From NCBI GenBank assembly GCA_036567965.1, contig DATCTN010000018.1:1-64000 (forward strand): DNA of 64,000 nt, given 5' to 3'. Shown here one piece after another: positions 2,142 to 14,852 of this stretch. Source of the DNA: Candidatus Kryptoniota bacterium (GTDB taxonomy: Bacteria > Bacteroidota > Ignavibacteria > Kryptoniales > JAKASW01). Each line of letters starts with the position of its first letter. Position 1 is the stretch's first letter. The translations under genes and the position numbers were made by a program. The notes under the pieces were generated by a model. It was not told where the DNA came from. It saw only the letters and a program-made list of their open reading frames with translations, and made no database searches.

Positions 2142-3128
2142 TTAGAAATGTATCGCCAGTCGGACCTCGGTCTGATAACCGAGTCCATCCGGCAAAGGTG
2201 AGAGCCCGACAGTCGGCTCAATAATTCTTTTATTATTGTGCGCCCACAGAGCCGCTTCAATAGCGGAGACAAAATGGTTCGCGATCACCACGTTCACAGC
2301 TGTGAGTGCCACCGCATAGAGGTTGTTCGCCTTTCCGCGCTGTCCCATATAGTAACCGCTGTTCGGGGTATCACTACGCAGGGAGTCGTACGAGGTAATG
2401 GCAAGGTTCTCATCATACCACCCTTCCCGGAATTGTGGGTATTTGCCGATGAGTTCGTAGTATTGCTGTTCGCCATGAGCGGGGAGCATGTGTGAGAAAT
2501 AGCCACCAAGTGCCGCTTCAACTTTGTTAAGCGCAACCCAGTTGACCTCGTCCCATGGCGCAGGTCCGCCGCTGCTGGGTAATATTAGAGATATATAATT
2601 ATTCACGGTGGTGGGATCAGTGACAGGCGCATACTGGCCGCCCGCTATGGGAATCCCTTTGTCCTCGAAGCTCTTGTAGTTCTGTTGGATCCATTGCGCG
2701 TAACGCGCAACACTATAGTGCCCGTCGGCGTACTTGTCCGCCGCACTGCCGTCTGCGTAGTTTTGGAAAAAGTTGGTCTGGTTGTTCCCTTTCTGATTCC
2801 ATACCGCGTTCACCATCCACCCTGCAACTTCGACGGCGAAGAATCCTGCCGCCTTCCAGTAGTTGCCATTATACAGTTGACCCGCACCTGGAATAACCAG
2901 AGAGAAGAATCCAGCTTTCAGGGCAGATCTGGTTTCGACGCGCGAGATTGAATCCTCGTGACTGGAATCGCCTTTCGAAACGAACAAGTCATGCGACAAC
3001 ACTCCCGTCAATCGAGACTGTGATGAATTCCCGTCCCCGAGAAAGACGACACTCTGTACATGGCTTGCCTTCGACTGTGCCGCTGCAGTTGCACTTAGTG
3101 CGATCAACGTAAGGAAAATCTTTTTCAT
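2142..3128 (-). CDS. DUF5683-type secreted/outer-membrane protein, last gene of the porU operon
   Basis: The protein has 328 residues and begins with a signal peptide (MKKIFLTLIALSATAAAQ). Its central segment, SLVIPGAGQLYNGNYWKAAGFFAVEVAGW, is typical of DUF5683-like proteins, which carry the P-G-x-G-Q-x-Y-N-x-x-Y-W-K signature. The family has no established function. The ATG at 3128 overlaps the TGA of the upstream gene (ATGA), which indicates translational coupling. A longer ORF reaching 3188 would lie inside the upstream gene and lack a signal peptide. Operon membership suggests a role at the cell envelope alongside the T9SS genes. Confidence 0.7.
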   Translation of the reverse strand: MKKIFLTLIALSATAAAQSKASHVQSVVFLGDGNSSQSRLTGVLSHDLFVSKGDSSHEDSISRVETRSALKAGFFSLVIPGAGQLYNGNYWKAAGFFAVEVAGWMVNAVWNQKGNNQTNFFQNYADGSAADKYADGHYSVARYAQWIQQNYKSFEDKGIPIAGGQYAPVTDPTTVNNYISLILPSSGGPAPWDEVNWVALNKVEAALGGYFSHMLPAHGEQQYYELIGKYPQFREGWYDENLAITSYDSLRSDTPNSGYYMGQRGKANNLYAVALTAVNVVIANHFVSAIEAALWAHNNKRIIEPTVGLSPLPDGLGYQTEVRLAIHF

Positions 3129-6100
3129 AGCCGTCTCCCGAAATCTACGATGTCGAAGGAGAATGTCAATCCAAAATAGAATCTCCATTCCTTGCCGTAC
3201 GTAACGCTTGTCGAATAATCCCGGAGCTGTGTAGTGAACCTATCGAGGCCATAAGTTGCGTCGAAGAAAATCGCCGTTGGAAAACTATAAAATGAAAATC
3301 CGCTCATTCTCAGCTCCGACCCCACGTCCTTCTTAAATCTCGTCCCGATAGGATTGCCGTTCCAGCAATTTCCCACATCACCGTACGCTGAAAGATACAC
3401 GTCGCTCAAGTAGAACTGGAGAATCTGTTTGTCCACGTCTCTGAAAAGCGGATACCTGTAAGTAGCGTTCAGCGTCAGGAGCTTGTTGCCTCCGAGCGCA
3501 TAGAACGGATAGCCTCTCATCCCGACCAACCCACCGGCGTAAAAGTCAAAGAAGTTGTTGATCTCCGGACCAAACGTGTAGCCGAAATGGACCTTTACCG
3601 CTATCGCGTCGTCGTCCCTGAGGAGCGGCATAGCGGCGTAATTCATGAGTTCCACCTGGACGAAATTGTAAGGAACGTATATCGGAATAATCAGATTGGT
3701 ATTACCTTCGAAGTTGCCGTTGTTCAGCCTGTCAAGTGCGGCTGAGAGTCTCAATCGCGTGCGGATTCCCAGCGGATTGATCCACGAGTTTCTTGCGGGT
3801 GTTATTCCGTCAAAATCAAATTGTGCGTAAAATGTCCTTCCAAGAAAATAAGTGTACCCGATTGCAGGAGTGTAGCCCAGGCCGCTAGGGAGAAGAAATC
3901 CTGAAATTGTAGCGCTATACATGTCGAAAGTGAAACCGAGTGCGAGGTTGAGGGATGGCGTTATGATGGGTCCGCCGAAGGCGGCATCGACCTCAATCAG
4001 ATCGTAAGTCACCGGAACCTGCACTGTGTCCAGACCAAGGCCAATCGAGCCGTGTGCCTGGCGCGAGATGTTGTACGCTGATAGTGTGAACCGCGGAAAG
4101 ATTCCGAGCGCGGACAACCCGGGTATGACGTCGTTGTAATTCAGCTGGAGGAAAAGGTCGCGTTCGAGAAGTTCGTTGATTGTCGCCCCGCCGAATATAT
4201 CGTACTTGCCGACGACATCCGTGGAATTAAAATATACTCCCGCCTTAATTTCGTCGAGAAAACTCGTATGCTGATTGTAATTGTCGAACAGGAGAACCGG
4301 GTAAAAAGACATGCTAGTCGTAGTGCTTCGGTATGGCTCTGACGGAAATTCCGGGACCGCGATATCGTTATGGCGCATCGGCGTAGCAATGGAATCGTGG
4401 TCAGCCGGCGAGCCGGAAAACGGCGGATCAATCCGGACGTGATACGACGGCGGGATAAGGATAGGTCGGGCATTCTCTATCGAAGCTAATTTGTAACCGT
4501 TCCACTGATACGAAGAAAAGACCAGGTCCCCTTTCTGCGAGATGCTAGGCATGAATGCACCGCCGAGTACATTTGTCAGCGCGACCACCGAGTCGCTATG
4601 AAGATTCTCCTTATAGACATTGAATATCCCGCTGCGGTCTGAGGAGAAGACGATGCTGCTGTCATTGTCGGCAAACGAAGCGTCGCGAGAATCTTCACCT
4701 GATGGGGTAACGAATCCTATGGTGCTGTCGCGGAAGCTGTAAATGCCAATCCTTCTCGATGAGTCAATCGAGTAATCAAACACGATCCTCGATCCGTCCT
4801 CTGACCACCGGGTGGAATAGATTTGTTGTCCGCTCACAAAACTGGATAGTCTTCTTATGTTGGTTGCGCGATTGTTCTTCAGATCTATGTCGGCACAGTA
4901 CAGGTTCATCGTGCCATCCGTCCCCCCTATCGGAATGCCCGTCAACATTTGCACACCGCAACAAAACAGATTCAGAGACGGATCGCTCGAGGCTACGAAT
5001 GACACCCTCCTGCTGTTGCCGGAGAGCGACGAATACTGAGCCCTCAACCCGTTCGTTAGCCTGACCTCTTTCTCATTTCGGATGTCATATGAGTAAAGAT
5101 CGTACAGATCATTCCAGTGATCGTTATGTCTCGTCTCCTTCGAGTAAACGATGTAATTGCCGTCTTCCGACCACGAGAGTTCTCCGGCTACGTTTGTGGC
5201 AAGTTCTTTCTCTGAGCTGTCGACAGGGTTGTAGATATATATTGAGGATGTCCCGAAGTAGTCGCTCTTCTTGTTCGAACAATAGGCGATTAGGCTGTCG
5301 TCCGGAGAGAATACCGGATAGAGATTTGCAAACCCTGTATTTCTAATTATCTTCCCCTCATGCAGTCTCTGCCTGATTGCTGCGACGCTGTCTTCATAAT
5401 TTTCCTTGAGGAACTGCTGCCATTCAGCATAGACCAGATTCCCTGACATTCCTAGTACGTTCTGGAAAGCATGATCGATGGTGACGGCAGCGGGAGACGT
5501 CATGGCATCTGACAATTTCCTGAGTACGCCTGCACCATACTTGCCGGCGAGATATCGGACGAATGCGAATCCGGAATTGTAAGTCGATTCATTGCCAAGG
5601 CTTGTTTTGCCGAACCCACCCATCTCCTCCAACGTCAGTGTCCTGTCGTTCAACACGTACATCCGCAGGATCATATCGCGGTGAGTATCCCACGTGTCGT
5701 GCTGAAAATTCAGGGCGGGCACATTGTACTGGGCGACCCCTTCAGCGAACCAGGCAGGAATTACAATCCCGCTGAGCGGGTAACTGACGACAACGTTCGG
5801 ATAGCCGTAGAGTACGTCTGGTCTCCGCTCTGCTTCGTATCCAAGCCACTGTAAATAAATTGCGGGAATCCTTCGGCCGAACTTCATCGCGGTCTGCATC
5901 TGGACGTCGTGGGTAAATTCATGTGTAATGACATTGCGCAACCAGTTGTGAGTACCGCGCAAAGCGAAATCCAGATTCGATGCCCATATGTTGATCTTGT
6001 TGTCGAAAAAATATGTTTCGCCGTTGGAGTAATCGTCTGTATTCCACAGGACGAAAGAGACTTTCTGTGTCGGCTGGTATTGATAAAGAGAGGTGACCGG

Positions 6101-6307
6101 GCCGTACATTTCCTCGGCAATCTTCGCAACAAGCTCAGCTGTTCGCTCCTCACCTTGGTGATAGTCTACGAGGAAATGGGAGGTCTCGATCGTTTGCCAG
6201 GTGAGTTCCGGATGGATATAATCGTCCTGTGCCGTGGCGATCAAAGGAAGGCTGAAAACCAAGCCCGCGAGACATATCCCGGTTTTAGAACTTGAGAGAA
6301 ATCTCAC
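3125..6307 (-). CDS. Gluzincin-like peptidase / TolB-type propeller / Omp85-like barrel protein
   Basis: This large envelope protein (1060 residues) appears to join three modules. A signal peptide ending near ATAQ (residue 27) is followed by a peptidase-MA-like region with HEFTH at 129-133 and a candidate third zinc ligand, Glu189 in WFAEGVAQY. Residues of roughly 320-640 carry repeated PVFSPDDSLIAY / WSEDGNYIVYS / WSEDGSRIVFD blades of a WD40/TolB propeller. The last 350 residues are aromatic-rich alternating strands with LVGMRGYPFYALGGNKLLTLNATYR split motifs typical of BamA/Omp85-like barrels. The GTG start at 6307 overlaps the TGA of the gene before it. The likely location is the outer membrane with the peptidase outside or in the periplasm; the function is unknown. 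Confidence 0.72.
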   Translation of the reverse strand: MRFLSSSKTGICLAGLVFSLPLIATAQDDYIHPELTWQTIETSHFLVDYHQGEERTAELVAKIAEEMYGPVTSLYQYQPTQKVSFVLWNTDDYSNGETYFFDNKINIWASNLDFALRGTHNWLRNVITHEFTHDVQMQTAMKFGRRIPAIYLQWLGYEAERRPDVLYGYPNVVVSYPLSGIVIPAWFAEGVAQYNVPALNFQHDTWDTHRDMILRMYVLNDRTLTLEEMGGFGKTSLGNESTYNSGFAFVRYLAGKYGAGVLRKLSDAMTSPAAVTIDHAFQNVLGMSGNLVYAEWQQFLKENYEDSVAAIRQRLHEGKIIRNTGFANLYPVFSPDDSLIAYCSNKKSDYFGTSSIYIYNPVDSSEKELATNVAGELSWSEDGNYIVYSKETRHNDHWNDLYDLYSYDIRNEKEVRLTNGLRAQYSSLSGNSRRVSFVASSDPSLNLFCCGVQMLTGIPIGGTDGTMNLYCADIDLKNNRATNIRRLSSFVSGQQIYSTRWSEDGSRIVFDYSIDSSRRIGIYSFRDSTIGFVTPSGEDSRDASFADNDSSIVFSSDRSGIFNVYKENLHSDSVVALTNVLGGAFMPSISQKGDLVFSSYQWNGYKLASIENARPILIPPSYHVRIDPPFSGSPADHDSIATPMRHNDIAVPEFPSEPYRSTTTSMSFYPVLLFDNYNQHTSFLDEIKAGVYFNSTDVVGKYDIFGGATINELLERDLFLQLNYNDVIPGLSALGIFPRFTLSAYNISRQAHGSIGLGLDTVQVPVTYDLIEVDAAFGGPIITPSLNLALGFTFDMYSATISGFLLPSGLGYTPAIGYTYFLGRTFYAQFDFDGITPARNSWINPLGIRTRLRLSAALDRLNNGNFEGNTNLIIPIYVPYNFVQVELMNYAAMPLLRDDDAIAVKVHFGYTFGPEINNFFDFYAGGLVGMRGYPFYALGGNKLLTLNATYRYPLFRDVDKQILQFYLSDVYLSAYGDVGNCWNGNPIGTRFKKDVGSELRMSGFSFYSFPTAIFFDATYGLDRFTTQLRDYSTSVTYGKEWRFYFGLTFSFDIVDFGRRL

Positions 6308-9300
6308 TTCACCACGGCAATCTTAATGATCTTCACGTCTCTCTCCGATGAAGAGACGGCCTCGACCCTTGCAAAATAGATCCCGCTCTGTACCCCGCTT
6401 GCATTCCAGTCTATCTCATTCGCGACACCACCCGTTCCGCTCAGCTGGTAGTTCGCAACTTTGTCGCCAGCAAACGTGTAAATGGTCACCGACACTTGAG
6501 CGTTGTCTCGGAGATAAAAATGAATCTTTGTCACGTTATTCGTAACGGGGTTCGGCCAGTTGTACACTTGCGATGCGGGCATAAGGGTTTGGGACGGCGG
6601 CGGCTGAACGCTTTGAAGCGGGGCGGTCACAGAATTCGCATGCGACTCATCGTGGTACAGATTTCCCCAAACGATTTGGCTTGCCGAATTCCCCTTGAAG
6701 GTCCAACAATATAAATATCCATCGAGGCCGATAGCAGCCAGATAGAGGTTTCCGCTGTCATAAGCAACAGCCGGACTACCGGCCAATCCAGCACCGATCG
6801 ACAAAGGAAATCCCGGGAAGAGCTGGCCAGTTGCTCCCGTGAATGCGTACAACGTTCCACCCTTAGTGCCGAAGATCATTTCCGGCTTTCCATCTCCATC
6901 CAAATCCGCGACAACAATCGAACCAACGATATGGTTTGCATCGGAAGACAGCACCTCGCTCCCTACCGTCGTCAGCGGAAAATATTTGAGGACTGCGCCG
7001 CTGTAAGAAATCGCGAAGAGTTTTGTTTGAGTCGCAAAAATTACGTCACGATTCCCGTCACCGTCAAGATCCGCGACAACAGGCCCTGACACGATCGTAT
7101 CGCCGGGAAAACAGTTGAAGGTAATTGCAGAGTCGCCCTGAAGGCTCGCGAGACTTATCGACTGAGTTGAGACATCGATAACCCGGGGAGTCCTGCCGGA
7201 AGCGAGGCTCGCGTAGGAGACTGCAATGTGCGACAGCATCGGCCTGCCGAAAGGCGGTATTGGAACAGCAACGGAGTTTGAGTTCACAAGACTGCTGAAA
7301 TCGATGACTCGATACCCGAAGACCAGAGTGTTCACGATGAAACTGCCGGTGTCAATCGACGCATATTGAGGAAGGGTAATTGTTGCCGCGGCAATTGAAG
7401 CGCTTGAGTTGTTATAGTTCGCCGGGAAAGTCAAGCTGAAATATCCGAGGTAATGACCGGTTAAGTCGAATATTGTCCAAGCACCGGGGAAATGCGGGGA
7501 GAAACTCAGAATTCTGTTGCCCGTTCTGAGGAGGGGCGCGCTGGACAGATAATTCTGCTGCGGGACTCTAGTCGAAAATAGAGTGTCGGCAGTGCCGTCA
7601 TGATTATTGTCCGCGTCCGAAAAGCCATAAAGCGTGGAATCGTCCATCGAACAAAGAGGATTCGAGCTGGCGTTGTCGGAAAGAGCCGCCGGCTGATATC
7701 GGCCTCCCACTTTCGAGAATAGCCCCGACGAATCAAAACCCGCAGAAGTTCCATCCATGTTAAACGCGAAAAGCGAGTCGCCATTGTTCGCGATCACCTG
7801 CAGTCTACCGTCAGAACTTATCCGAGCGAACAGTGGCGAAGAGTTTGGAGTAGCTGAGTGAATATTTCGTGGAAAGCCTGAGGTCGGCTGAATATCGACA
7901 TCTCCCACCTGGACATCAACAGTCATCAGGCTATCGGCAGAACTGAAATTCGTAATATAGACATGCGAGTTTGCGCCTGTGTAGCTGTCCGATGTCGGAT
8001 ACGATGTCGGAGTAAAGCGGTTCGCGTAATTCGGAATCGGATTTCCCTTGAACCAGAAATCGTAAGCAGATCCGTCGTAGTAGTATGATCCGAATATTGT
8101 CTGGATATATCTGCCGATCTCGTTCGCGCCGTGTGCCTCCATCAACGCGACACCTCTGTGTTCAGGATCGGCATTAACGGTATTCGAATCGATTTTCTGA
8201 TCGATCACATTCTGGTCTATGTGCCAGATTAGAATTCCGCCGTAGTATTTGGTGCCCTTTACAATGTCCGAAGGAAGCGCCCAATCGTATTCATCGGCGT
8301 CGGTAACGACACCATCTATTCCTTTTACCTGAGTGCCGTCAAAATAAGTTGTGTCGTCCGTGAAATTGAGATTCGAAGTATTTTCATTGTATGAGATCTT
8401 CAAGTTTTCACCGTCGTGCAGCGCATCTCGCTCGCGGTTCTCGACGAGAAAGTATTCGCTTCCGCTTATGGGGACCTTAAGAACGGAGTACTGTCCCGTC
8501 GCCCGTGCGCGCAGCTGGTAAGTCGTTGCCGTTGGAGGAGAGACCACCAGAGGCTCGGTCCATCCAAGAAACTCTTTCTCCCACGCCGACGGTTCGGGCG
8601 GAAAGATCCCACCATACGCGAATATCGACTGGCCGTCCATGAGTCCGAATCTTCCGATCCCAGTGACGCCGGTTTGAGTATCGAAGAGGTCAGGAAGTCC
8701 GAGGAAACTGCCGAAGCTCGCCGCGAGGAGCCCGTTGGAGCCGAGCTTAAGATCGATCATGATGTTTCCGGATCCATCGTAAATCTGATAGGACTCACTC
8801 TCGGGCATGATGATGGAATTGTCGATGAAGAAATTTCCGTTGTCTACCGATTGTCCGCGGTAAGTCGATCCGAAAATATTCTGAAGACCTGCCGGACTCA
8901 AATAAAGCGAGGGTAAATCGAAAGGTCGTGGATCATATCCGAGTTGGGATGTGAAGTCGATATCCCGGCCGGAACCGGCGTGAAAGATCACGAAGCTCTG
9001 GTACCGGCTGAAATCAAAATTCCCATAAATTGAGTCTGCCGCATGCCACGCATCCTCAAAGAGAAGTCCAAGATTGCTCTGTGACGAGGAGCTTTTGGGG
9101 GGCGAATAATATTTCATCTGGTGAGGAAGAGTAATGACAGAGTCGAGAACGAAGTAATTGACGTTCAGTCTTCCGCCGGAGACTTTCTGAAAATAGTTTT
9201 TCAGAAAAAGAAGGTGGTTTGAGAAATAATTCTTGTCATGAGGAGGAGCATCAAGGCCGTTTCCTGGCAGGCTGACGAATTCTCCGTTTCCGCTCGTGAG

Positions 9301-9510
9301 GCTGTCCTGGTCGGTTTGAAACTCGACCATGACAGCAAGAACGTTGACCGTGCCCTGTGCGGCGGGCACCGGATGGCGTGTGAACGATGCTGCCGCCAGT
9401 GGATGATCGAGAAACGGTTTTATCGGCCCTTCGTGACCGTACAGCGTCTGAACATTTGCGATCGCCGCGACGGAGACTAAGACCGCGAATCCTTTGAGTC
9501 TAAAACCCAG
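6304..9510 (-). CDS. T9SS cargo: M6-peptidase-like protein with a degenerate zinc site
   Basis: The mature part aligns with M6 (immune inhibitor A-like) peptidases: LAVMVEF, a fold up to VIFHAGSGRD, then GLPDLFD, GIGRFGLMDG and SAWEKEFLGW. The zinc motif normally reading HEFGH is ASFGS here (residues 264-268, bases 8707-8721), so it should be catalytically dead. Two FG-GAP-like repeats (VVADLDGDGNRDVIFAT, VVADLDGDGKPEMIFGT) precede a T9SS sorting domain (YNWPNPVTNNVTKI to IIKIAVVK). The first standard start in frame is GTG 9369, which would give no signal peptide. Extending the frame to CTG 9510 adds a good one (LKGFAVLVSVAAIA), preceded by GGAG, with a TGA stop seven codons further up. I therefore propose a CTG start overlapping the porV stop; the protein then has 1068 residues. 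Confidence 0.72.
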   Translation of the reverse strand: MGFRLKGFAVLVSVAAIANVQTLYGHEGPIKPFLDHPLAAASFTRHPVPAAQGTVNVLAVMVEFQTDQDSLTSGNGEFVSLPGNGLDAPPHDKNYFSNHLLFLKNYFQKVSGGRLNVNYFVLDSVITLPHQMKYYSPPKSSSSQSNLGLLFEDAWHAADSIYGNFDFSRYQSFVIFHAGSGRDIDFTSQLGYDPRPFDLPSLYLSPAGLQNIFGSTYRGQSVDNGNFFIDNSIIMPESESYQIYDGSGNIMIDLKLGSNGLLAASFGSFLGLPDLFDTQTGVTGIGRFGLMDGQSIFAYGGIFPPEPSAWEKEFLGWTEPLVVSPPTATTYQLRARATGQYSVLKVPISGSEYFLVENRERDALHDGENLKISYNENTSNLNFTDDTTYFDGTQVKGIDGVVTDADEYDWALPSDIVKGTKYYGGILIWHIDQNVIDQKIDSNTVNADPEHRGVALMEAHGANEIGRYIQTIFGSYYYDGSAYDFWFKGNPIPNYANRFTPTSYPTSDSYTGANSHVYITNFSSADSLMTVDVQVGDVDIQPTSGFPRNIHSATPNSSPLFARISSDGRLQVIANNGDSLFAFNMDGTSAGFDSSGLFSKVGGRYQPAALSDNASSNPLCSMDDSTLYGFSDADNNHDGTADTLFSTRVPQQNYLSSAPLLRTGNRILSFSPHFPGAWTIFDLTGHYLGYFSLTFPANYNNSSASIAAATITLPQYASIDTGSFIVNTLVFGYRVIDFSSLVNSNSVAVPIPPFGRPMLSHIAVSYASLASGRTPRVIDVSTQSISLASLQGDSAITFNCFPGDTIVSGPVVADLDGDGNRDVIFATQTKLFAISYSGAVLKYFPLTTVGSEVLSSDANHIVGSIVVADLDGDGKPEMIFGTKGGTLYAFTGATGQLFPGFPLSIGAGLAGSPAVAYDSGNLYLAAIGLDGYLYCWTFKGNSASQIVWGNLYHDESHANSVTAPLQSVQPPPSQTLMPASQVYNWPNPVTNNVTKIHFYLRDNAQVSVTIYTFAGDKVANYQLSGTGGVANEIDWNASGVQSGIYFARVEAVSSSERDVKIIKIAVVK

Positions 9511-10657
9511 TGTCTCCGCCCCAGTTCAGAGATAAAGAAAATCTCAATTGGTTGGACAACGGATTATTCTGGTCGAAGGTCGATATGTAACTGAAATCAA
9601 ATCCGTAAATATCGTACCTGATGCCCGCACCGAAGGTAAGGAAGTTTCTTCCTCCAAAATTAGGATTCTCCTTGTAGTATCCCATTCGCAAAGCGATCAA
9701 TCGCGGACTGCCGTACCAGTATTCGGCTCCGGCACTTATTATTATTCGTTTCAGCCCGCTGCCGTCGCTCCAGGTTGTAATCAGAGATTTCGGCAAAGGG
9801 TCGACAGTGTTGGTGTACACCGTGGATGTGTCGCCCGAAGTCGGATCGATGGCAATCGATGAATCGGTCAAGACACGGACCATGGTACGACTGAGATCCA
9901 GCAGGAGATAGAAATTATTGTATTCGGTTTTCAGCAGATGGAGAGAGATGCCCAACCTGAGGTTGGTGGGGAGAGGATCCGCTTGTGCCTGATCAATGTA
10001 ATACAGTTTCGGTCCGAGATTGCTCAGGGCTATTCCCAGTCCCAGGCGGTTGTCGAAATTTCCCAGGAGCGGTAGATCGAGCGTCTGGGGACGGTACAGC
10101 AAACCGATGTCGAAGCTGACATCCGAGGCAATACCTTTTCCGGCTTCTTGCTCTGTGCCGAATGGCGCGAGTTCGCTTCTGATGTACCTGAAGTTTGCGC
10201 CCAGTCCGAGACCGTCGGAGATCTGCGCGGAGTAGCCCACTGTGACGGCAAATTCAAAAGCATGCCACGTTCCTACTATTGTCGGACCGTCCGAGTAAGT
10301 TCTATTGAACTCCCCGAGATTGAAATACGTGATGCTTGCGGACAAATCTCCGTCCCAGTCGGGGAGGTAATGTCGGAAGCTGAGGAAATCGTAGCTGAGA
10401 TCTGAGCTGAACTCGGGCAGCCATGGTGCATGAGTCAGGCTTATCTCGTCCCCTTTCAGAAATGCCAGTCCGCCCGGGTTCCAGAATAACGCGGAGACGT
10501 CGTCGGCCAGACCTGTGCCTGATTCACCCATGCCTCCCGCGCGCGCATTCGGAGATATCAGCAGGAAGGGAACTGCCGTCTCGCCCTGGGCGAAAGCACC
10601 TGAACTCAGCGACAAAACAAATCCCGCCGCGAACAGTGCTAAAAGCGTTGATTTCAT
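9500..10657 (-). CDS. porV: Type IX secretion outer-membrane protein PorV
   Basis: PorV is the FadL-like outer-membrane barrel of the T9SS that passes cargo from the translocon to the PorU sortase. The protein has 385 residues, with a signal peptide ending GAFAQ and the family signature FLLISPNARAGGMGESGTGLADDVSALFWNPGGLAFL. The rest is alternating barrel strands. ATG 10657 has AGGAG nine bases upstream. It lies directly after porU (62-bp gap) and its stop overlaps the proposed CTG start of the cargo gene. Family assignment is firm; the role is taken from known T9SS work. Confidence 0.9.
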   Translation of the reverse strand: MKSTLLALFAAGFVLSLSSGAFAQGETAVPFLLISPNARAGGMGESGTGLADDVSALFWNPGGLAFLKGDEISLTHAPWLPEFSSDLSYDFLSFRHYLPDWDGDLSASITYFNLGEFNRTYSDGPTIVGTWHAFEFAVTVGYSAQISDGLGLGANFRYIRSELAPFGTEQEAGKGIASDVSFDIGLLYRPQTLDLPLLGNFDNRLGLGIALSNLGPKLYYIDQAQADPLPTNLRLGISLHLLKTEYNNFYLLLDLSRTMVRVLTDSSIAIDPTSGDTSTVYTNTVDPLPKSLITTWSDGSGLKRIIISAGAEYWYGSPRLIALRMGYYKENPNFGGRNFLTFGAGIRYDIYGFDFSYISTFDQNNPLSNQLRFSLSLNWGGDTGF

Positions 10658-10719
10658 ATAATGTCACTCCTGATTTGTAAGCTTATTATAAATAGTTAGA
10701 CTAATAACTTCTACACTCA

Positions 10720-13700
10720 TCAGCGTACAACAGCCATCTTTCCGAGCGCTTCGCTTGTGTACGCACCATCAACAGTGGAGACGACCACTTTATAAAAGTA
10801 CACACCGTTCGCAAGACGGTCGCCATCTTCATCGAGACCGTTCCAGTCGATCTTCACGAAGTCGTCCGTTATCCCGTAAGACCTTATGGTCTTGATCAGA
10901 CGACCGCTCAGCGTGTAGACTTTTATAGTAACGTCGACCGGCGATCCTGCTCCGCCTGCGGATGACCTCTTGAAAGTGAACGAAGTCCCCGCACGGAACG
11001 GATCGGGATAATTGTACAGATCCAGAATAGAGAGTTTCTCCGAGGACTGGATGTTGAATTCGGCACTGGCCTGTGCTTCGTTGTCAAATACATCGAATGC
11101 TTTTACGTTCACGGAGTGCTGGCCGAATGGCAGAGACATTGTTACAGGGAAAGACACCGTTCCGTCCTGATATGAATTTAGATTTCCGATGTAGTATGAC
11201 GAGAGGTCCACCGACTGCTGATTGTCAAAGATCGCCTGCAAGGTATGCCCTACTCCGACATCGGAGAGGTTTATCCCGTTCGAAGAGTGGAGATCGACAA
11301 GGAGAGTGGGGTTTTCTGAAACGACGTCGCCATCTCTGAAATTTCTGGAGTCAAGGTAAACGCTAATTTGAGGAGGGATCCCATTGTTCACGACATTTGT
11401 TGCTGTTCCACCGACGATTAAGTTTCTTGAATAACCCGAACCATCTGATCCGCCTGCCTGGAAATAAATTTCGAGCTTGCCGCTTTCGTTACTGTAAGAT
11501 ATGTCGGACGGGACAACTGCCCTCGCCTCGAAGGTTCCGTTCTGGATAGAGACATTCCCGCGGAAAAGAATCGAGCCCTGGAAACTATACGTCTCTCCCC
11601 ACTCTGAGATATACTCGGGTTTGTCAGAGTCATACAACGTCACCAGTCCGGTGCCGGAGAGGTTTGACCATGGTGTCATGTCAGGATGGAATATAGTTCC
11701 TTTGATGTCGAGCTTATCGAGTGCGCGCACCTGGCTAACTTGGACTAAAGATTTTCCATTCAGGCTGTCCATCGATCCGAGAAACTTCGGCATCCCGAGC
11801 CTCACTGTAGGATCACCGATATATTGATACTTTATGTCGTTGCTGTCGTATCTCAGCTGCTTTGTCAGATACATTGCCTCACCGATTCTCGGGGCATTTC
11901 TCACCGAATCGCGCGCGAGCAAATCTGTAAACAACTGCTGGTTTAGATACGCGTTCTCGTTGGAGTAAACGACTCGCGTTGAGCTGACCACTCCGATTGC
12001 TCCACCCTGCGGCCAGGTCATGAGGAGTTCAGCTCCGCTTGGGCTTTGAGGATTGTCATCGTACGCGAAATCGCACGTCGCCGCGACAAAGAGGGAGAGT
12101 CTTGAGAAGTTGGTCAACTGTGGCACGACGACAGGCGCCTCAAGCACGTGAGTGTACGACCAGAGATTGAAAGCGCCGTGGCCGACGAAATTCAGTATCA
12201 ATGTCCCCTGGTTGACTTGATTGATAATGTCCGCTGTTGCGTCGGGCTTCCGCCTTCCCTGCGTGGAAATAACTGTCGGATAAAGTGCAAGGTAGATTTT
12301 TCTCTTGTCGAATTCGGGCGGCGTGTAATTCTGGGCGAGAAGGTCAGCGTTATCCGTATGCACCGGTTCAATAGGTGCACCTCCTGTGGTTATGCCGTCG
12401 TCGCCGATGTAAGTGATGAGGCTCCTCCAGCTTCCGAAATCCGGCTTGGATTCATACTCTATTATTTTACTCACCATCGCGTCGGCGTCATCGCTGCTCT
12501 TTGCGGGAAGTCTTCCGACCGCCATCGAGATGGGAGCATACATCAGCGGCGCAGCAAACTGGACGAAATAATCGTCTGTGCTGTAGCTCCCGACCTGGTA
12601 AAGAGATTCATCGGATTCATACGGCGGGATGAACTCCGGTGTCGCCGAGACCCTGCTCTTGTAGTCGTAGCTCCCTCCGCCAAACAGGATAACGTATGAA
12701 GGAGTCAACTGGTCGTTCTTGTATTGATACTCCAGAAAATCACGAATGGCAGTAGGGTCAGGAATGCCGCAGCCGAATTCGTTGTATATGGAAGTTGTTG
12801 CGACTATTAGTGTTTTGAATCCGTCGAAACTCTGTTTGAAACTGGCCAGCTGGTCGGCCTGCGAGATGAAATCGGGCGCAGTTACAATAATCAGGTCTTC
12901 TCCGGAGACATTCCCGTGAAGGTTTGAGTTATCGACGGCGGTCATCCCTCCGATCGACTGATATCCGTTATCACCGACGGCCATGAACTGGCTTGGCGCC
13001 CCGGAGTTCGCCTGTGAGCCGAACGATATCGTGCCGCCATTCGTTGAATCGGGCGCGATCAATTTCACGTTTGCGTAGTCGGAAACATCAAAAAGTTTCA
13101 TGTTATTCGAAGAGAATCCGGAGACCGAGTAGTACGCAACGGCCGACGTATCGGGACCGTAGAAATCCAGAAAGTCGTTCAGAGATTGGAATTTGCGTTG
13201 GTAGAGAATCTCAAACCAATCGATCCAACCGGTGGCATCCGGCGAATCTGAGTAGTAGACGAACTTGAGTGCGCTTCTCTGCGAAGGAATGTTCCCTGTT
13301 GAAGTGTATCTATATGGCCCAAGTGAGTAAGCATAGTTGTCCTCAATGTCGGAATAGTCGACCGTCGAACCGTAAATGGTGCCGAGTTTGAATCCCGTCG
13401 AATTCTCAAACACGTCAAAATGATTTGAGTTGTCGCTCCTCGTAACGACCCTCACGTGGTATGTTACGCTCCTGGTAGAGTCAAGTCCGTAGAGCCTGTT
13501 CACGTAAAGCGCGACGTTCGAGTTTGGAAAACTCTGAGAAGGCGGCTGAAGCTCCTGACCGTACCACTCTTTTCCTGAACCGATAATATTATACAGCTCG
13601 CTGTCGGCGGCAATTCCACATGTAAAAGTCAATGGGGTGTAGTAAGAAGTCGAATGTACGCTTTGAACGGTTGTCATTCTTTTTCCGGCTGCCCCGCCGA

Positions 13701-14685
13701 AAGTGAGAAAATAAAAATTCGTTTCGGTGTAAGGGTTTAAGTAATGCGAATAAGTTTCATTTCCAGGATTGTAACTCCACTCTCGAGGTGATTTGCCGTA
13801 AAACAAGATAAAATCTTCCTGATCAAATTTGTCGTTACCATTCGCATCGTAAACATAGATCGCGTTCTCTACAAGATCGGTCGGTCTTGCAGTAGTCGGA
13901 TCTTCTGGAAGAACCGAGCCGCCGTTATTGAAAAGTCGTATTGTACTGAGCTGAATCTTGTCCACCGCGATCCCGGCATTTTTCAGGTTTAAATAACTGA
14001 TCTTATAGATTCCGCTTCGGGACACGCCGAACTTGTACCATGTTCCCTGCGACAAAACACTTGACGCAACTACCTTCATAAGGCCCGATGGAGCGCTCAT
14101 CACTGCACTCTTTACCTGGCTGTAGTTAACAAGCGATTCCCCCAGGAGGAGATCGGGTCCTACCGATTGGTTTCTTACACTCATGCCGACGGAGACAACC
14201 TGGACAACAATCCTCTGCAGAATGTGATAAGTACCGGCTGTGCTGTCGTACATAAACGGATATACTTTGATCCTGGAGACGAGATGGTTTCGCTGTTCAT
14301 AAGGCAAATCGTATGACAGAAACTGCGAGATTTCAGTGGCCTTGACGCCGCCGGGAATTCTCGGACTTCGAACCGGAGGCATCATTACTAAAGTCCTGTA
14401 GTCGGTCTGAAGAACCTGTACCTGTATCCGCCGCGAGAAAACTCCGACGAGAACGGGTACGAATTGCCTGAGGTAGTCGCCTCTCATATTAAATTCCGGC
14501 CCGGCTCCTTTGAACATCAGATTCAGTGCCTGCGTGTTCCCCGTCCTGATTGTGTCCGCCCCTATTGAATCAGGGACCACTTCAATTGTGGTTGAGGTCG
14601 CGCTCTCCGAAACAACACGAACTTGTTGTCCGTATGCCGGGAGCACGATTATCGCCAGGAGTAAGCTTATGATACTGCGCTTCAT
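10720..14685 (-). CDS. porU: Type IX secretion sortase PorU (gingipain-like C25 peptidase)
   Basis: PorU is the cell-surface C25 cysteine peptidase that removes sorting domains from T9SS cargo and attaches cargo to the surface. The protein has 1321 residues: a signal peptide (SIISLLLAIIVLPAYGQ), a long N-terminal beta region, a C25 domain from about residue 595 to 960, and a C-terminal sorting-like domain (YNYPDPFRAGTSFTF to EALGKMAVVR). The catalytic pair is visible as His836 in NFVGHGAFNLW and Cys871 in VAATCDFAYDD. An in-frame GTG at 14691 is an alternative start. It heads the operon and is preceded by an unusual leader and terminator-like hairpin. Confidence 0.92.
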   Translation of the reverse strand: MKRSIISLLLAIIVLPAYGQQVRVVSESATSTTIEVVPDSIGADTIRTGNTQALNLMFKGAGPEFNMRGDYLRQFVPVLVGVFSRRIQVQVLQTDYRTLVMMPPVRSPRIPGGVKATEISQFLSYDLPYEQRNHLVSRIKVYPFMYDSTAGTYHILQRIVVQVVSVGMSVRNQSVGPDLLLGESLVNYSQVKSAVMSAPSGLMKVVASSVLSQGTWYKFGVSRSGIYKISYLNLKNAGIAVDKIQLSTIRLFNNGGSVLPEDPTTARPTDLVENAIYVYDANGNDKFDQEDFILFYGKSPREWSYNPGNETYSHYLNPYTETNFYFLTFGGAAGKRMTTVQSVHSTSYYTPLTFTCGIAADSELYNIIGSGKEWYGQELQPPSQSFPNSNVALYVNRLYGLDSTRSVTYHVRVVTRSDNSNHFDVFENSTGFKLGTIYGSTVDYSDIEDNYAYSLGPYRYTSTGNIPSQRSALKFVYYSDSPDATGWIDWFEILYQRKFQSLNDFLDFYGPDTSAVAYYSVSGFSSNNMKLFDVSDYANVKLIAPDSTNGGTISFGSQANSGAPSQFMAVGDNGYQSIGGMTAVDNSNLHGNVSGEDLIIVTAPDFISQADQLASFKQSFDGFKTLIVATTSIYNEFGCGIPDPTAIRDFLEYQYKNDQLTPSYVILFGGGSYDYKSRVSATPEFIPPYESDESLYQVGSYSTDDYFVQFAAPLMYAPISMAVGRLPAKSSDDADAMVSKIIEYESKPDFGSWRSLITYIGDDGITTGGAPIEPVHTDNADLLAQNYTPPEFDKRKIYLALYPTVISTQGRRKPDATADIINQVNQGTLILNFVGHGAFNLWSYTHVLEAPVVVPQLTNFSRLSLFVAATCDFAYDDNPQSPSGAELLMTWPQGGAIGVVSSTRVVYSNENAYLNQQLFTDLLARDSVRNAPRIGEAMYLTKQLRYDSNDIKYQYIGDPTVRLGMPKFLGSMDSLNGKSLVQVSQVRALDKLDIKGTIFHPDMTPWSNLSGTGLVTLYDSDKPEYISEWGETYSFQGSILFRGNVSIQNGTFEARAVVPSDISYSNESGKLEIYFQAGGSDGSGYSRNLIVGGTATNVVNNGIPPQISVYLDSRNFRDGDVVSENPTLLVDLHSSNGINLSDVGVGHTLQAIFDNQQSVDLSSYYIGNLNSYQDGTVSFPVTMSLPFGQHSVNVKAFDVFDNEAQASAEFNIQSSEKLSILDLYNYPDPFRAGTSFTFKRSSAGGAGSPVDVTIKVYTLSGRLIKTIRSYGITDDFVKIDWNGLDEDGDRLANGVYFYKVVVSTVDGAYTSEALGKMAVVR

Positions 14686-14702
14686 CTTCACTCATCAAAA
14701 AT

Positions 14703-14745
14703 AAAAAAGCCGAATGCCGTGCAAACTTTCTGCACATCATTCGGC
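14703..14745 (-). terminator. Intrinsic terminator-like hairpin just before porU
   Basis: On the minus strand GCCGAATG pairs with CATTCGGC (14709-14716 and 14738-14745), with an inner TGCA/TGCA extension, and six T residues follow immediately (14708-14703). The structure ends only 17 bases before the porU ATG. It may terminate a short RNA or act as an attenuator for the porU operon. The sequence alone cannot say which. Confidence 0.7.
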
Positions 14746-14817
14746 AGAAAAGTTCGTCAAAGGTCTAGACCAGCATCGATTTTAAACCTTTAACGAACCT
14801 TCGCTAACACTTCCTTT
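14703..14817 (-). ncRNA. Candidate structured leader or small RNA upstream of porU
   Basis: From the inferred start near 14817 to the T-run at 14703 the minus strand makes an RNA of about 115 nt. It has two stems. The first is a long hairpin whose 13-base arms (14786-14798 and 14752-14764) match at 12 of 13 positions; the second is the terminator hairpin. No protein gene fits. I recognise no known riboswitch or RNA family. It is either the 5' leader of porU with an attenuator or an independent sRNA. Confidence 0.5.
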
Positions 14818-14823
14818 TTAAAA

Positions 14824-14852
14824 AATATAGCAGGAATGGACATGGCTGTCAA
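14824..14852 (-). promoter_or_regulatory. Consensus sigma-70 promoter for the porU leader
   Basis: On the minus strand, TTGACA (14852-14847) and TATATT (14829-14824) are separated by exactly 17 bases. This is close to a perfect housekeeping promoter, pointing at the leader RNA and porU, with transcription expected to start near 14817. No other gene start lies downstream before porU. Confidence 0.7.

Follow-up and report, generated by a model that had tools for sequence, protein, structure and literature searches.

The type IX secretion system (T9SS) has been worked out in a small number of model species, namely Porphyromonas gingivalis and Flavobacterium johnsoniae. In the 64,000-nucleotide stretch of DNA analysed here (the window), porU and porV lead a head-to-tail run of five minus-strand genes (2142-14691, ORFs of the window; Table 1), which raises the question of whether the three genes behind them, which encode an M6-like pseudopeptidase (M6i), a protein joining a peptidase, a propeller and a barrel (PropBar) and a member of the DUF5683 family, form a functional unit with the secretion system. 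The original prediction had supposed such a unit from the tight coupling of the five genes.

Table 1 Features of the porU-porV-M6i-PropBar-DUF5683 locus in the window.
Feature	Position	Strand	Description	Matches	Remark
porU	10720-14691	minus	type IX sortase, C25 domain and C-terminal domain	NF033707 917 bits; PF01364 282 bits	
porV	9500-10657	minus	outer-membrane shuttle for type A cargo	NF033710 257 bits (cut-off 250); PF19572	
M6i	6304 to about 9510	minus		NF052323 855 bits; TIGR04183; PF18962	start is the proposed CTG
PropBar	3125-6307	minus		PD40; Peptidase_MA_2 (latter slightly below cut-off)	
DUF5683 protein	2142-3128	minus	signal peptide, GAGQLYNG hydrophobic segments	PF18935 38.7 bits	
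promoter-like site upstream of porU	14824-14852	minus	TTGACA-17-TATATT	11/12 matches	TG precedes the second hexamer

The ORFs confirmed the predicted layout of five minus-strand genes joined by a short gap and overlaps. porU, starting at GTG 14691 or ATG 14685, is separated from porV by 62 bp; the M6i stop and the PropBar GTG overlap as GTGA (6307-6304), and the PropBar stop and a DUF5683 ATG as ATGA (3128-3125). For M6i, no ATG, GTG or TTG that would retain the signal peptide was found in frame before 9369, and the CTG at 9510-9508, within the end of porV, is the sole start-like codon upstream in this frame. The CTG start proposed earlier is the only start-like codon that gives a signal peptide, and appears reasonable but unproven. 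The sigma-70-like promoter site before porU, whose first base (14852) is also the end coordinate of the original prediction, is a consensus match only, and promoter-like sites across the whole region showed no excess over shuffles. At the other end of the cluster, a phosphoesterase gene (1154-2134) converges on the DUF5683 gene with 7 bp between them. Its weak match to NF053862, a family of anti-phage phosphoesterases, reached 61.7 bits against a cut-off of 420, and as a neighbour of the cluster the gene was seen only within the window's genus.

A comparison of gene order across relatives had been set as a test of the proposed unit. Regions around an M6i match in relatives from the same class and the wider phylum were searched with five protein profiles, giving a sample of 81 loci. 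The outcome that would have spoken against the unit, an order shared with no relative, did not occur: the order porU-porV-M6i-PropBar-DUF5683 on one strand was found conserved in 55 of the 81 loci, a count that informs order and not presence because the loci were chosen by their M6i match. In the other loci the same cluster lacked a gene at one of its ends, ran off the contig or had its PropBar gene elsewhere. Computed with the first start codon, the median gap was 1 bp from M6i to PropBar and -4 bp from PropBar to DUF5683. The outer flanks varied between groups, with IspE and the phosphoesterase in the window's genus and different genes elsewhere; since the five-gene order recurs while the flanks differ, it is not a local accident or a product of chance. 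A named-organism scan gave only four loci; the carriers of the cluster identified by name include Stygiobacter electus (L077), a named species, and a bacterium labelled Ignavibacteriales (L078). Among the genomes examined, families f8, f15 and f16 contained porU-porV only and f11 contained porU-porV-DUF5683, and in family f5 porU and porV lay apart. DUF5683 also adjoined porV in loci lacking both M6i and PropBar (L124-L127, L247, L248); it therefore belongs to the porV locus independently, and is an accessory of that locus more loosely tied than the M6i-PropBar pair.

The strongest bond in the cluster is that between the two peptidase-like proteins. M6i and PropBar were present in an identical set of 152 of 395 genomes across the phylum with no discordant case, a co-occurrence that shared ancestry inflates. 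Presence was scored at E below 1e-100 for NF052323 and at E<=1e-60 for the PropBar profile; the M6i threshold was chosen post hoc, weaker matches (E above 1e-14) being sorting-domain or other partial matches, and the genome lists were transcribed by hand and compared by script. Fisher's test on the co-occurrence counts was given no weight as evidence, since relatedness makes the genomes non-independent. In the same 395 genomes, PorU was found in 257 and PorZ in 250, and since these distributions differ from that of the pair, the identical distribution is special to M6i and PropBar. Furthermore, both genes were present but PropBar was unlinked from M6i in families represented by G034, G043, G024, G064, G126 and G178, and by G052, which lies outside the 395-genome sample; within the unlinked families both genes were kept, and loss of either was not seen. 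The functional unit of the original prediction thus holds insofar as the five genes are conserved far beyond the window's genome, with DUF5683 as a looser member and the main bond lying between M6i and PropBar.

Joint losses of the pair were also observed. On a PorV tree built by a quick method (99 rows), the joint state of the pair changed at least 5 times. In G196 and G292, which represent sister lineages, the pair alone was deleted between porV and DUF5683 in separate events; in both, remnants of the beginning of M6i and of the end of PropBar persist, and the breakpoints differ. Because the two genes are adjacent, one deletion removes both, so that such losses show the pair to be dispensable together without implying mutual need, and are weaker proof than their counts suggest.

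M6i begins with a signal peptide, followed by an inactivated M6-like peptidase domain and an FG-GAP/beta-propeller region, and ends with a type A sorting domain of the T9SS. It belongs to an already known NCBIfam family, NF052323 (T9SS-dependent M6-like inactivated metalloprotease), with 855.1 bits against the curated cut-off of 600. The M6 assignment comes from this family together with a sub-cut-off TIGR03296 match, and a sequence match of M6i to solved active M6 enzymes was not found. None of the 87 M6i homologues carried HExxH; the site of the zinc motif reads AASFGSFLGLPDL in the window, and the stretches around it (GLPDLFDT, PPEPSAWEK) show strong conservation. The sorting domain (TIGR04183/PF18962) scored 35.4 bits in the window (cut-off 23) and was present in 22/22 scanned members. 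From this C-terminal domain M6i is predicted to be a type A cargo of the T9SS, in agreement with the dedicated cargo suggested earlier. In its structure model (pLDDT 77), the propeller resembles PorZ (5m11) and BamB. M6i was considered as a PorZ substitute, and this was rejected because the PorZ propeller family is present in most pair-bearing genomes, the window's own included.

PropBar comprises a signal peptide, a Peptidase-MA-like gluzincin, a TolB-like propeller (residues about 320-610) and a barrel (667-1049). HExxH was retained in 79/79 PropBar sequences. In the window the motif reads HEFTH (129-133) with E189 as the downstream glutamate, and H129, E130, H133 and E189 were invariant in 20/20 aligned rows; Peptidase_MA_2 matched 20/20 members at E<=1. 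With these motifs intact, PropBar is predicted to be an active peptidase of the gluzincin type. Its barrel, modelled at moderate pLDDT (mean 76 for the model), has 16 strands as counted in the model's DSSP, and carries a loop-6-type motif, GMRGY (929-933), between strands 11 and 12. Across members this motif reads GM[RKQ][GS]Y and is degenerate in comparison with (V/I)RG(F/Y), the R being replaced by K or Q in some members. PF01103 matched 5/20 members (best 3.6e-8). No family match to POTRA was obtained for PropBar and the propeller occupies that place; the POTRA domain defines classic Omp85 members, not the WD40-Omp85 subfamily. For the barrel by itself no structural match was obtained, the 50 best Foldseek matches all being of the propeller type. 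Taken as modelled, the barrel looks like that of Omp85 proteins, an assignment weakened by the mean pLDDT, the few PF01103 matches and the degenerate motif.

The N-terminal part of Omp85 proteins is periplasmic. Likewise, the N-terminal enzyme domain of the Omp85 protein PlpD stays in the periplasm (PMC11116518). By analogy with this topology and with PlpD, the peptidase of PropBar most likely faces the periplasm and not the surface. Of the surface peptidase with its own barrel in the original prediction, the barrel was recovered in the model; the surface placement is disfavoured by the family topology and was probably wrong.

SprA was found in 26/26 genomes tested, pair-bearing or not. Two genomes, G281 and G400, have kept PorU, PorV, PorZ, SprA and 56-60 sorting domains and have lost the pair. 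As these genomes run T9SS genes without it, the pair was rejected as an essential part of the T9SS core. The pair was also absent from about 120 sampled PorU-bearing genomes. In 16 genomes of one family, the pair was kept, together with porV where checked, PorU had no match at E<=1e-100, and SprA was present in all; PorZ gave no match in 15 of them and a weak one in the sixteenth. A part in the sortase step is therefore unlikely for the pair, which is accessory to the T9SS and separable from its sortase. The 16 genomes (f37, including G154, G246, G308 and G404 and loci L180-L183, L185, L255 and L256) had SprA, 5-32 sorting domains and, where checked, PorV; apparently they possess a T9SS without its sortase, with no recognisable PorU and, in nearly all, no PorZ. 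PorV is known as the shuttle for type A cargo (PMC5562754, PMC12618676), and in porU mutants such cargo is still held by PorV (PMC5562754).

Other arrangements of T9SS genes were encountered. Genome G000 contains a second PorU-like/PorV-like pair downstream of a secA-like gene (contig C31; L133:6637-12491), in which the 1615-aa PorU-like ORF (NF033707 332 bits and NF052324 256 bits, both below cut-off) and the PorV-family gene overlap by 4 bp. The whole genome has 148 matches to T9SS type A sorting domains and 16 to a PorV/PorQ-like family, indicating a very large T9SS cargo set. In a genome of the window's own genus (L114, G007:C8:8000-27900), porU is followed by unrelated genes with neither M6i nor PropBar; no PorV was found there at E<=1e-40, and with an assembly about 90% complete PorV may simply be missing.

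On the best reading of these results, M6i and PropBar make up an accessory module in the outer membrane that depends on PorV and the T9SS. The observations behind this reading are the conservation of the operon, the strict co-occurrence and joint loss of the pair, the dead and live motifs, the sorting domain and the domain architecture. Whether the two proteins are the halves of one T9SS-dependent outer-membrane device is evenly poised in our judgement; for such a device, we infer the physical contact, the membrane sides and the reaction as follows. M6i would enter the periplasm through Sec, be exported by the T9SS and, given its type A domain, should be received by PorV, which would fit two observations, that no neighbour is closer or more constant than porV and that the pair persists where PorU is gone. 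M6i would then remain on the cell surface; in genomes with PorU it would be cleaved and anchored, and in those that have lost PorU it would still be held by PorV. PropBar would occupy the same patch of membrane as a barrel of the Omp85 type, its metallopeptidase and propeller lying beneath in the periplasm, and the strict pairing points to a single device that M6i, on the outside, and PropBar, within the membrane, either form or serve. Since the M6i fold has been kept though its peptidase is dead, the most plausible role of that domain is binding or sensing, not catalysis. The PropBar peptidase would do the cutting, for instance to remove or process stalled cargo, or barrel proteins, in the vicinity of PorV. 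Two candidates lead for its task, the processing of cargo and the quality control of barrels. A bolder version of the device, in which M6i recognises T9SS cargo or an outside ligand at the surface and PropBar couples this through its Omp85-type barrel to the periplasmic peptidase, making the two a transmembrane proteolytic station at PorV, is a tentative and less probable proposal.

Alternatively, M6i might be an ordinary surface cargo and PropBar a dedicated processing or release peptidase cutting M6i or its surroundings, with PorV merely a shared shuttle. A live-motif peptidase strictly paired with a dead one that bears a type A sorting domain speaks for this; however, PropBar should have its peptidase in the periplasm, where an exported cargo spends little time, and the good conservation of the pseudopeptidase fold suggests that M6i has binding as its own role, which leaves this alternative unlikely. 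A similarly low probability is given to a helper role of PropBar in assembly, as an insertase of the Omp85 type or in the quality control of PorV/SprA-class barrels, with M6i as its surface subunit. Omp85 relatives do assemble barrels, the pair lies beside porV when linked, and WD40-Omp85 proteins have been compared with a fusion of BamA and BamB (Heinz and Lithgow 2014, PMC4104836), but T9SS parts and cargo persist without the pair in G281, G400 and the PorU-bearing families lacking it, and the loop-6 motif of PropBar is degenerate. Mere co-regulation of envelope genes whose products do not work together would suit the habit of operons to group envelope proteins and the adjacency of DUF5683 to porV without the pair, yet it is improbable, as M6i and PropBar go together even where they are not neighbours, and the distributions of PorU and PorZ do not match that of the pair.

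An accessory module of this type, in which a dead and a live peptidase are strictly inherited together at the T9SS locus of numerous further families of the phylum, points to T9SS biology that the model species may not show. If true, the proteolytic station at PorV would be a secretion-linked signalling or quality-control device, and to our knowledge a transmembrane station of the M6i-PropBar kind is known from no described secretion system. In the open-access literature, no account of the five-gene order, the strict pairing, the independence from PorU or the joint deletions was found, which is weak evidence of novelty.

Two components of the module are already known, the M6i family (NF052323) and the WD40-Omp85 architecture (PMC4104836). 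NF052323 shares with M6i the inactivated M6 domain and the type A sorting domain, and its name and description give no partner or mechanism; the link of M6i to PropBar and to the five-gene operon was worked out here. The PorU-PorV-PorQ-PorZ attachment complex of Porphyromonas gingivalis contains PorU and PorV of the same families as those of the window. PorZ and M6i both combine a propeller with a sorting domain, and the M6i model matches PorZ, whereas the two proteins coexist in most genomes and the M6i-PropBar pair outlives PorU. PropBar shares with the WD40-Omp85 subfamily a TolB-like propeller before an Omp85-like barrel and the absence of POTRA (PMC4104836), and differs by its additional N-terminal gluzincin with a live motif and its tie to a T9SS cargo. 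PlpD, a patatin-Omp85 protein (PMC11116518), resembles PropBar in that its enzyme domain precedes an Omp85-type barrel, but its enzyme is of the lipase type, it is a homodimer, and it has no link to the T9SS.
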